A DNA stretch of 64,000 bases from Stenotrophomonas indicatrix (GTDB taxonomy: Bacteria; Pseudomonadota; Gammaproteobacteria; Xanthomonadales; Xanthomonadaceae), in contig CP168152.1 of assembly GCA_041545745.1 (NCBI GenBank), positions 3,656,001 to 3,720,000 on the forward strand, read 5' to 3'. Shown piece after piece: positions 1,697 to 63,266 of the stretch. Position numbers and translations under genes: made by a program. Within the stretch, counting starts at the first letter, position 1; each line of letters starts with the position of its first letter. The notes under the pieces were generated by a model. It ran no database searches. It was not told where the DNA came from and worked only from the letters and a program-made list of their open reading frames with translations.

Positions 1697-2149
1697 TCAG
1701 CGGACGGTGGAGATCAACGGCGGGCCACGCGCGGCGTGTGCCGGCCAGTGCAGCAGCGGCAGGCGCAGCTGTGACCATGGGAACACCAGCTTCGGCCGCC
1801 ACAGCAGGGGCAGCAGCAGCACCAGCACTGCCAGCCACGGCAGCAGGCGCATGGCCAGCACGCAGTACTCGCAGGCCTCGCCATGCATGGCGTGCGGATC
1901 AGCGGGCGGGGTCGGATCCCTTTGCCCCGGCAAAGAGCTCTGACCCTCAGCCATATCGCCGTGATGCATATGAGCATGGTCCATGCCGCCATGCATTGTG
2001 GATGGGGTCAGAGCCCTTCCCTGTGGTGAAGGGATCTGACCCTGAGGCGCCTGCAGCGCGCGGCTGACCAGCGGCGCGAGCACCATCAGCAGCGTCGCCA
2101 TGAAGGCAAGCTGGAGCAGGGTTCGATGCAGGCGGAAGGCACGGATCAC
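1697..2149 (-). CDS. DUF2946 family protein, His-rich, copper-locus associated
   Basis: Small membrane-anchored protein (about 150 residues) of the DUF2946 family. The GTG at 2149 is chosen because it adds the N-terminal Arg/Leu segment before the hydrophobic stretch MATLLMVLAPLVSRAL; an ATG at 2101 is the alternative, and neither has a clear ribosome binding site. A His/Met-rich loop (GGMDHAHMHHGDM) and the motif HGEACEYC suggest metal binding; a second hydrophobic segment (LAVLVLLLPLLW) follows. Two copies of the GGGGTC-type hairpin repeat lie inside the frame (1908-1947 and 2004-2043) and encode the flanks of the His-rich loop. Probably co-transcribed with the copper receptor. The exact function of the family is unknown. 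Confidence 0.7.
   Translation of the reverse strand: MIRAFRLHRTLLQLAFMATLLMVLAPLVSRALQAPQGQIPSPQGRALTPSTMHGGMDHAHMHHGDMAEGQSSLPGQRDPTPPADPHAMHGEACEYCVLAMRLLPWLAVLVLLLPLLWRPKLVFPWSQLRLPLLHWPAHAARGPPLISTVR
1908..1947. repeat. GGGGTC hairpin repeat inside a coding sequence (copy 1)
   Basis: Imperfect palindrome GGGTCGGATCCC...GAGCTCTGACCC of the same family as the intergenic copies at 2434, 8282, 12193, 29005 and 63825. This copy lies in frame inside the DUF2946 gene. Confidence 0.75.
2004..2043. repeat. GGGGTC hairpin repeat inside a coding sequence (copy 2)
   Basis: Palindrome GGGGTCAGAGCCCTTCC...GAAGGGATCTGACCC inside the DUF2946 frame, 56 bp from the other intragenic copy, on the other side of the His-rich codons. 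Confidence 0.75.
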
Positions 2150-2295: not shown

Positions 2296-2397
2296 GGCGG
2301 GGTGGGTCCGGTTGCGGGGGACGCCGTAAATACGTCCCTGTAGGCTTGGCCGCGGCATCCATGCCGCGGACACCCCCGCAACCGGACCCACCCCGCC
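2296..2397 (+). repeat. Long-stem element copy A
   Basis: Outer arms 2296-2320 and 2373-2397 are perfectly complementary over 25 bp. The core carries ACGCCGTAAATACGTCC, CTGTAGGCTTGG and an inner hairpin CCGCGGCAT-CC-ATGCCGCGG. Six further copies in the window share the core but have different arms. Confidence 0.85.
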
Positions 2398-2433
2398 TTC
2401 GACAGATTTCCGCGATCTGTTGGAATGGCTCTT

Positions 2434-2473
2434 GGGGTCAGATCCGTTTTCCTACGGAAAACGGATCTGACCC
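2434..2473. repeat. GGGGTC hairpin repeat
   Basis: Near-perfect palindrome GGGTCAGATCCGTTTTCC / GGAAAACGGATCTGACCC between long-stem elements A and B. Confidence 0.8.
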
Positions 2474-2502
2474 AGATTGATTTCGATATCTGAAAGAGAT
2501 TC

Positions 2503-2550
2503 ATCCACGCATGGCGTGGATCTACCGTGTCGACCAAGGTCGACACCTAC
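2503..2550. repeat. Two tandem SMAG (GTAG) hairpins
   Basis: ATCCACGC-ATG-GCGTGGAT followed by CTAC (GTAG on the other strand), then GTGTCGACC-AA-GGTCGACAC followed by CTAC. Both have the GTAG end typical of Stenotrophomonas SMAG repeats. Confidence 0.85.
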
Positions 2551-2574
2551 CAACAGCCATCGGAATCTGTCAGA

Positions 2575-2676
2575 GGCGGGGCGGTGTCGGAGTGCGGGGT
2601 GTCCGCGGCATGGATGCCGCGGCCAAGCCTACAGGGACGTACTTGCGGCGTCCCCGCGCTCCGACACCGCCCCGCC
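2575..2676 (-). repeat. Long-stem element copy B (inverted relative to A)
   Basis: Arms 2575-2599 and 2652-2676 match over 24 of 25 positions but differ from the arms of copy A. The core is the reverse complement of the A core, with the same inner hairpin. A and B face each other tail to tail, 177 bp apart. Confidence 0.85.
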
Positions 2677-12011: not shown

Positions 12012-12117
12012 GGCCGGGGCGGTGTGGGCCCGCGGGGGACGCCGTGAATCCATCCCTGGAGGCTCGGGCGCGCCATCCATGGCGCTTACGCCCCCGCGAG
12101 CCCACACCACCCCGGCC
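12012..12117 (+). repeat. Long-stem element copy C
   Basis: Arms 12012-12038 and 12091-12117 are complementary at 25 of 27 positions. Core ACGCCGTGAATCCATCCC with inner hairpin GCGCCAT-CC-ATGGCGC, a different inner stem from copies A and B. Confidence 0.85.
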
Positions 12118-12192: not shown

Positions 12193-12233
12193 GGGGTCGG
12201 ATCCGTTTTCCTGCGGAAAACGGATCCGACCCC
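12193..12233. repeat. GGGGTC hairpin repeat
   Basis: Near-perfect palindrome GGGTCGGATCCGTTTTCC / GGAAAACGGATCCGACCC between long-stem elements C and D. Confidence 0.8.
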
Positions 12234-12317
12234 GACGGCCGTCGAGCGAAGCGAGCGCTTCTGCTCTTGCTCTTCTTTTTTCTCTTCCGTGGGTGGACGC
12301 ACACGGAAACTGTCAGG

Positions 12318-12421
12318 GGCCGGGCGGGTGGGCTGGGCAGGGGTGTCAGCCGCATGGATGCGGCTGCCAAGCCTCCAGGGACGGATTCACGGCGTCCCCT
12401 GCCCAGCCCACCCGCCCGGCC
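12318..12421 (-). repeat. Long-stem element copy D (inverted relative to C)
   Basis: Arms 12318-12343 and 12396-12421 are perfectly complementary over 26 bp, with a sequence unlike the arms of the other copies. The inner hairpin is AGCCGCAT/ATGCGGCT. Preceded by CTGTCAGGG, the reverse-strand form of the conserved 3' module. Confidence 0.85.
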
Positions 12422-18629: not shown

Positions 18630-18723
18630 GGCAGGGGGAGGGGCCGGGACACGCCGTAAACCCATCCCTGGGGGCTCGATGGCGCCATCCATGGCGCCAA
18701 CGGTCCCGTCCCCTCCCCCTGCC
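18630..18723 (+). repeat. Long-stem element copy E
   Basis: Arms 18630-18650 and 18703-18723 are complementary at 20 of 21 positions. Core ACGCCGTAAACCCATCCC with inner hairpin TGGCGCCAT-CC-ATGGCGCCA. Confidence 0.82.
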
Positions 18724-18890: not shown

Positions 18891-18994
18891 GGCTGCAGGG
18901 GCAGGCACTGCGGGACCGTCCGCGGCATGCATGCCGCGGCCGAGCCTACAGGGACGTACTTGCGGCGTGTCCCGCAGCGCCTGCCCCTGCAGCC
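18891..18994 (-). repeat. Long-stem element copy F (inverted relative to E)
   Basis: Arms 18891-18915 and 18970-18994 are complementary at 24 of 25 positions. The core is in reverse orientation, with inner hairpin CCGCGGCATGCATGCCGCGG. Confidence 0.82.
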
Positions 18995-62715: not shown

Positions 62716-62817
62716 GGCGGGGTGGGTCCGGTGGCGGGGGGCGCTGCAAGTACGTCCATGTAAGCTCGGTCGCGCCATCCATGGCGCTCACGCCCCCGCA
62801 ACCGGACCCACCCCGCC
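62716..62817 (+). repeat. Long-stem element copy G (unpaired)
   Basis: Arms 62716-62740 and 62793-62817 are complementary at 24 of 25 positions and nearly match the arms of copy A. The inner hairpin GCGCCAT-CC-ATGGCGC is like copy C. No inverted partner is present nearby. Confidence 0.82.
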
Positions 62818-63080: not shown

Positions 63081-63266
63081 GCCTGCCGGCGTTGCGCGCG
63101 TGTTCCTGCGTGGCGTCCGGCAGGCAATCCGTCCGTGCGTTCTATGGCGGGCGGTGCGTGGGGGCTTCGCGCCCGCCGGCGTTCTTGAGGTAGTCACCGG
63201 TATTGCAACCACTCACCGCCCGCCACCCTCGCCTTCGAGTGGGTGGCCCCTTGCCTTGCGCACAAG
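63081..63266 (+). ncRNA. Structured leader or small RNA upstream of a small unknown gene
   Basis: Nested stems: GCCTGCCGG/CCGGCAGGC (63081-63089 with 63117-63125), a 15 bp stem with one mismatch (63146-63160 with 63210-63224, inner part GGCGGGCGGTG/CACCGCCCGCC), a small GGGC-TTCGC-GCCC loop inside it, CCACCCTCG/CGAGTGGGTGG (63224-63247) and CCTTG/CAAGG (63252-63267). The long stem encloses TGAGGTAGTCACCGG. Not matched to a named RNA; leader or sRNA nature is inferred. Confidence 0.5.

Follow-up and report, generated by a model that had tools for sequence, protein, structure and literature searches.

A dispersed TwoAYGGAY-like element with two GGA hairpins in Stenotrophomonas, predicted to bind RsmA

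The stretch of Stenotrophomonas indicatrix DNA analyzed here (the window: 64 kb, G000:C1:3656001-3720000 of the 4.66 Mb source genome, G000) contains a long hairpin whose arms differ strongly from copy to copy and still pair within each copy. What sort of element is this, which of its strands is under selection, and for what? An earlier note on this DNA placed seven copies in the window; all seven were confirmed (Table 1). When up to three mismatches are allowed, the core pattern matches the window exactly seven times, 0.01 matches being expected, and none of 100 shuffles reaches that number. The loop of the inner hairpin is CATCCATG in six window copies and CATGCATG in copy F. The window also includes a phage-type C4 antisense RNA.

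Table 1. Positions of the copies in the window, of the enlarged copies and of neighboring features; positions are those of the window unless a locus or contig is given.
Feature	Position	GGA (RNA-like) strand	Remarks
Copy A	2296..2397	-	Arms 2296-2320 and 2373-2397; P2 core 2321-2346; P3 2347-2372
Copy B	2575..2676	+	Partner of copy A
Copy C	12012..12117	-	
Copy D	12318..12421	+	Partner of copy C
Copy E	18630..18723	-	
Copy F	18891..18994	+	Partner of copy E; P3 loop ATGCAT, one GGA lost
Copy G	62716..62817	-	Without partner within 1 kb
Motif GACAG(N)TTCC	2400-2407		Example, beside copy A
Repeat GGGGTCAGA...TCTGACCCC	~2437-2477		Between copies A and B
Repeat GGGGTCAGA...TCTGACCCC	~12195-12235		Between copies C and D
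Repeat GGGGTCAGA...TCTGACCCC	L031:1293-1335 and 2073-2115		Flanks a 282-aa Y1 tyrosine transposase
C4 antisense RNA (RF01695)	63140-63230		67.4 bits
Closely spaced pair L024	G000:C1:1857003-1857080		Two opposed copies
234-aa frame in pair L020	L020:1710-2414		Frame on minus strand
Enlarged copies			L001, L046, L064, L097 (G000); L427, L445 (G021); L246 (S. maltophilia E301); L137 (G020)

In the whole source genome the core pattern gives 164 matches, and the reversed-pattern control a single one. At least 160 copy positions are listed and 161 copies were extracted; they lie at 105 sites, 53 of them with two copies, 51 with one and one with three. The earlier note had found the copies of the window without seeing that pairs in the source genome are always opposed: at 53 of 53 two-copy sites, the + copy is on the left and the - copy on the right (in the orientation of the core pattern), the cores being 50-997 bp apart (median 305 bp). 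In loci of other genomes this order is found in 28 of 39 two-copy clusters, with a spacing of 162-330 bp, and a direct orientation in 11.

Several copies and regions deserve a separate mention. At site L024 two opposed copies with cores about 50 bp apart have one hairpin stretch in common, and the pair looks as if a deletion had collapsed it. In the widest pair (L020, cores 997 bp apart) the copies bracket a 234-aa frame which we take to be a KDPG-aldolase-like enzyme; a cargo transposase, considered for this pair, was discarded on that reading of the frame. Roughly 450 kb of G000:C1 (~2.14-2.58 Mb), possibly the terminus region, are without a listed copy, compared with several per 200 kb elsewhere. 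Just 3' of the second arm, on the strand that carries the core pattern (hereafter the core-pattern strand), the motif GACAG(N)TTCC follows many copies in spite of their differing arms, so that what is inherited extends somewhat beyond the hairpin.

On the core-pattern strand, a copy consists of an arm of 20-29 nt, two bases (mostly AC), a hairpin termed P2, a second hairpin termed P3 and the complementary arm. The shared core had been recognized earlier, but neither its own hairpin nature nor the GGA loops of the opposite strand described below. The ACGCC...GGCT core is itself the covarying hairpin P2 (TAC/GTA, TCC/GGA or CCC/GGG; GCC/GGC or GCT/AGC), laid out as GCC-bulge-TAC-loop-GTA-GGC and in covarying forms, and each copy is therefore a long stem with two hairpins at its top. 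The arms pair at 14 or more positions in 156 of the 161 extracted copies, with a length of 20-29 bp and a complementarity of 96.7%, and 147 of these 156 share one inner layout. These 147 standard copies (135 distinct), obtained upon removing five copies without arm pairing and nine without the standard layout, are the set of own copies on which the arms and loops were counted.

When the standard copies are reduced to 22 unlike arm clusters, arm pairing amounts to 96.5% within copies, compared with a mean of 51.6% and a maximum of 63.6% over 2000 partner shuffles, in agreement with the previous claim that arms unlike between copies are self-complementary. The stems also covary, as had been claimed. 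Among 36 diverse copies, two-sided changes occur in 29 of 34 pairs, 95.6% of the cells are paired, and the covariation score is 0.679, a value which none of 500 shuffles reaches, versus 0.180 upon shuffling. Minimum-energy folding of eight RNAs recovers the long stem and P3 in seven, and P2 as drawn in only two; the evidence for P2 is therefore its covariation. In other genera the arms are wholly different, and in many copies pairing runs on into the flanks.

Conservation of the loops is apparent on the strand opposite to the core pattern (the GGA strand). There, an ANGGA loop closed by a C-G pair is present in 145 of 147 P2 and in 145 of 147 P3 hairpins, that is, about 290 GGA loops in the standard copies, and the two GGAs of a copy are 20 nt apart as counted on the layout. 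The P2 loops are AGGGAC (54), AUGGAC (42), AUGGAU (16), AAGGAC (15), AGGGAU (13) and, more rarely, ACGGAC (4), AACGAC (2) and AUGGAA (1); those of P3 are AUGGAU (141), AAGGAU (3), ACGGAU (1) and others (2). The strict form AYGGAY is thus found in 62 of 147 P2 loops and in 142 of 147 P3 loops. For distant copies, from other genera and families, seven of 73 matches were left out, and loops were counted on the 62 of the remaining 66 that have the standard length: ANGGA occurs in 59 of 62 P2 and in 59 of 62 P3 loops with U, G, A or C as N, and P3 loops of the form ANGGAU have U in 33 cases, G in 17, A in 5 and C in 2. In the enlarged form (Table 1) the P3 stem keeps its base, and its loop gives way to a domain of about 85 nt. 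This domain comprises three hairpins with two GGA loops on the same strand; hairpin loops reading AGGAC and AGGACA were seen in both of the examples that were folded, and one lost GGA loop is therefore replaced by two.

Which strand is constrained can be read from the mismatches in the outer stem. On the core-pattern strand, 66 of 2970 cells are A.C or C.A, 6 are G.T or T.G and 36 are other mismatches; an A.C or C.A on this strand is a G.U on the GGA strand. Strand-symmetric mutation would give equal numbers, and the asymmetry of 66 versus 6 speaks against it. Counted as distinct events, wobble pairs number 39 on the GGA strand and 6 on the other in own copies (p=5e-7), and 21 versus 1 in distant copies. 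Among orthologues with the same arms the numbers are 37 versus 4. The bias persists where a copy runs antisense to its upstream gene (14 versus 2, in a count leaving out 15 unplaced copies and 21 without a called upstream gene), and is hence independent of read-through from that gene. Since almost all of the tolerated wobble is found there, selection acts on a single folded strand, be it RNA or single-stranded DNA, namely the GGA strand. The earlier proposal of selection on the fold is thus supported both by covariation and by the strand asymmetry of wobble. Constraint acts on this strand in its folded, single-stranded form, and the wobble pattern fits RNA and single-stranded DNA alike.

The element had been described as neither SMAG nor any other named repeat. 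The first part of this statement proved correct. Like GTAG REPs, SMAG and REPINs, the element is intergenic, high-copy and arranged in inverted doublets avoiding divergent promoters. In contrast to the 20-40 nt hairpin of GTAG REPs and SMAG, it has a three-helix fold of about 100 nt and ends in its paired arms of 20-29 bp without an unpaired terminal GTAG, this tetranucleotide being found only inside P2 of the TAC/GTA subtype. The second part is weakened by a resemblance to TwoAYGGAY (RF01731), one mostly below cut-off and lacking for copies A and B.

Above its outer stem the element does have two hairpins whose loops, both on one strand, resemble AYGGAY. With permissive Rfam filters, the GGA strand of one copy (L170) scores 45.6 bits against RF01731, whose curated gathering cut-off is 43, and aligns with the outer stem and both loops in register. 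Nine RF01731 matches at E<=0.01 were obtained in the source genome, all on copies and on the GGA strand, one of the nine exceeding the cut-off; 14 control genomes gave none. Permissive filters also found RF01731 in one of four loci in one set and in three of eight in another. Default filters gave no RF01731 match in the window or in 35 other loci, L170 among them, and copies A and B stayed without a match under permissive filters and a threshold as loose as E<=10. As scores are mostly below cut-off and A and B are without a match, we refer to the element as TwoAYGGAY-like and not as a member of the family. Both have an outer stem and then two hairpins, first the longer and then the shorter, each with a GGA loop. 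The present element differs in having ANGGAY instead of AYGGAY loops, a shorter total length, scores mostly under the curated one, and about 160 dispersed copies in inverted pairs. On the GGA strand, columns 3/22 and 4/21 of P3 are G.A and A.G in 43 and 65 of 135 copies, respectively, and Watson-Crick or other pairs in the remainder; tandem-GA pairs in one stem are mentioned for TwoAYGGAY by Gardner and Eldai (PMC4333381).

TwoAYGGAY was presented in 2010 as probably an RNA and probably not cis-regulatory, occurring in human gut, gamma-proteobacteria and Clostridiales (Weinberg, PMC2864571), and it is also named in PMC11701678. Binding of CsrA to it was proposed in 2014, as an idea left untested in the text concerned (Gardner and Eldai, PMC4333381). 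In Rfam, RF01731 is of type Cis-reg and belongs to clan CL00106, which includes RsmY. An RsmY match below cut-off was found beside L066. Rfam matches to miRNA families and to Ysr224 were all below their own cut-offs and were taken as generic long-hairpin scores. No description of the high-copy repeat was recognized in the main text of open-licence PMC articles. The fold is thus of a known kind, and within that literature no prior account was found of the high-copy inverted-pair repeat, of its enlarged form or of the hairpin exchange reported below.

Taking the loops and the likeness to TwoAYGGAY together, we consider it probable (about 0.6) that this is a dispersed TwoAYGGAY-like RNA element of the GGA strand, high-copy in Stenotrophomonas and in parts of the Xanthomonadaceae, with a predicted capacity to bind RsmA. 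The source genome has a single csrA gene. ANGGA in paired hairpin loops, as in RNAs that bind CsrA/RsmA, is present, also in the enlarged form. The RNA would consist of a 20-30 bp stem of free sequence with two hairpins on top, each presenting C-ANGGAN-G. The 20 nt between the GGAs would suit the spacing preferred by an RsmA/CsrA dimer, with one dimer per copy. As the two copies of a pair face opposite ways, transcription across a pair would yield one copy in its GGA form, whichever side it starts from. Such a copy would bind one RsmA dimer via its two loops, and bound copies may titrate RsmA or modulate the end of the mRNA; transcription, RsmA binding and an effect on RsmA or on mRNAs are all predictions from sequence. 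In presenting multiple GGA motifs in hairpin loops the element resembles the small RNAs CsrB/C and RsmX/Y/Z. These have many sites within one or a few sRNA genes, whereas each copy of the element presents a pair of sites on a long stem of variable sequence, the copies are scattered chromosome-wide, and binding is predicted. Speaking against this reading, a GGA-containing RNA of Xanthomonas that binds RsmA is reported not to lose its binding when the GGAs are changed (PMC7694677). A stronger version, which we hold to be possible and rather doubtful, is that a transposon-like repeat acts as an RsmA/CsrA decoy array, with one usable copy per transcript and with loops and stems kept by selection amid hairpin exchange.

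Regarding gene context, the 53 own pairs lie between convergent (17), tandem (26) or divergent (4) genes, six being uncalled, and the two-copy clusters of other genomes are distributed likewise (11, 19 and 1, n=31). Among own singles with a called upstream gene, this gene is sense to the GGA strand in 25 of 31 (20 of the 51 are uncalled); elsewhere the figure is 49 of 75 called singles. In tandem contexts, sense and antisense orientations of the GGA strand number 12 versus 4 in own copies, 13 versus 19 elsewhere and 25 versus 23 in total. A sense preference relative to genes was accordingly rejected, and the upstream-sense excess is ascribed to location at 3' ends. The strand caller was correct in all 154 cases that it called out of 180 tested, a check made in the window only. 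A replication-strand bias of singles was likewise rejected (p=0.09, with the terminus position guessed).

Model R1 finds the element in 28 of 37 sampled genomes of the genus, source genome included, and not in the other nine, and in 4 of 24 sampled genomes of other families of the order. At the family level it is present in 57 of 198 genomes and in 18 of 54 genera. Carriers among the matches listed include Xanthomonas, Stenotrophomonas, Thermomonas, Luteimonas, Microbulbifer, Oceanisphaera, Zobellella and Chromatocurvus. Carriage by phages or plasmids was rejected on a search with copy A, the sole copy tried, which had no match in phage or plasmid records.

Comparison of orthologous sites, as suggested in the earlier note, showed both occupied and empty states. 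At the L066 site the element is kept in 10 of 29 relative loci examined; three loci (L321, L322 and L325) share a three-base block change that is mirrored on the other arm, and of seven other loci aligned, L327 and L328 look like hairpin deletions and the rest are without the element. Several element-free loci of this site have REP-like palindromes. At the L045 site the element is present in two of 29 loci, the other 27 being shorter (seven of these were aligned); the two relatives, with 92% and 85% identity over the locus, have an arm sequence in common that differs from the one in G000, and within every copy the two arms match. The comparison was extended to G021 and G273, which have at least 150 matches each and 102 and 77 copies, respectively, available for comparison. 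Upon leaving out 30 of 144 copies with weak flanks, the arms of the remaining 114 are the same in 63 (up to 3 of 25 pairs differing), intermediate in 10 and replaced in 41, in an ungapped comparison in which a length change counts as replacement. Twenty-eight of the 63 same-arm orthologues have five or more core differences, and 13 isolated two-sided changes were found among them; in replaced arms, 380 of 530 pair differences are Watson-Crick on both sides. Since arms are either the same or wholly replaced, with few intermediates, hairpins or cores seem to be swapped whole, through a process such as conversion or template switching, while selection seems to filter point changes. Part of the covariation is then whole-hairpin exchange and not stepwise compensation. 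Selection on the fold and a copying process that rebuilds one arm from the other had been offered as alternatives. Each is supported, the mirrored blocks and the wholesale replacement pointing to a mechanism that changes both arms together, and as both seem to occur the choice between them was not kept.

The strongest rival to an RsmA-binding RNA, though in our view an unlikely one, is that the GGA strand does its work as single-stranded DNA, in folded form. A copy would then serve as a recognition hairpin, and an inverted pair would mark both ends of a non-autonomous transposon that depends on an HUH/Y1 or other enzyme for its movement, as proposed for REPs and TIR repeats; the loops would be contacts of this enzyme and not RsmA sites. 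The tightly spaced, invariably inverted pairs, the presence and absence of copies at orthologous sites, the lack of an orientation preference in tandem genes (25 versus 23) and the wobble bias of antisense copies (14 versus 2) are all consistent with it, and hairpins of DNA tolerate G.T as well. TIR repeat families tied to tyrosine transposases are known in S. maltophilia (Di Nocera 2013, PMC3733652), and these repeats and TIRtrons resemble the element in being self-complementary, in forming many doublets and in the genus that hosts them. The element, set apart here from TIRs on the description in that text, differs from them in that none of the four Y1 transposase (Y1_Tnp) loci of the source genome has it within ~1.5 kb, and a tyrosine-transposase partner was rejected on this ground. 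The free N within ANGGA and the extra GGA loops of the enlarged form also fit CsrA sites better. A second self-complementary repeat, GGGGTCAGA...TCTGACCCC, which lies between the copies of two window pairs and beside the 282-aa transposase (Table 1), differs from the present element and fits the GGGGWSAS motif of TIR repeats as given in the text of PMC3733652.

Less probable still is a REP-like element of 3' ends, a terminator or mRNA-stabilizing hairpin whose fold is selected as RNA without any role for RsmA. Depletion between divergent genes (4 of 53 own pairs, 1 of 31 clusters elsewhere) and the very stable folds of all eight RNAs (z -6.9 to -13.2) would suit such an element, which leaves unexplained why only A..GGA is conserved in the loops while stems and N vary. 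That no selection acts, palindrome-correcting template switching alone keeping the arms complementary and the repeat being mutational debris, would account for mirrored block changes and for arms near-identical or wholly replaced (63 and 41 of 114, with 10 intermediates), but is very improbable and disfavoured as sole cause, as it does not account for conserved loops amid covarying stems and, correction treating both strands alike, would not yield wobble counts of 66 versus 6 or 37 versus 4.

Counting wobble pairs by strand offers a simple way to tell on which strand of a palindromic repeat selection acts, and a single genome offers 161 natural copies of a TwoAYGGAY-like element. If the copies bind RsmA, the scattered repeats would together soak up a global regulator, their number serving as a heritable dial; and if the decoy array is true, lineages gaining or losing it would shift their RsmA set-point.
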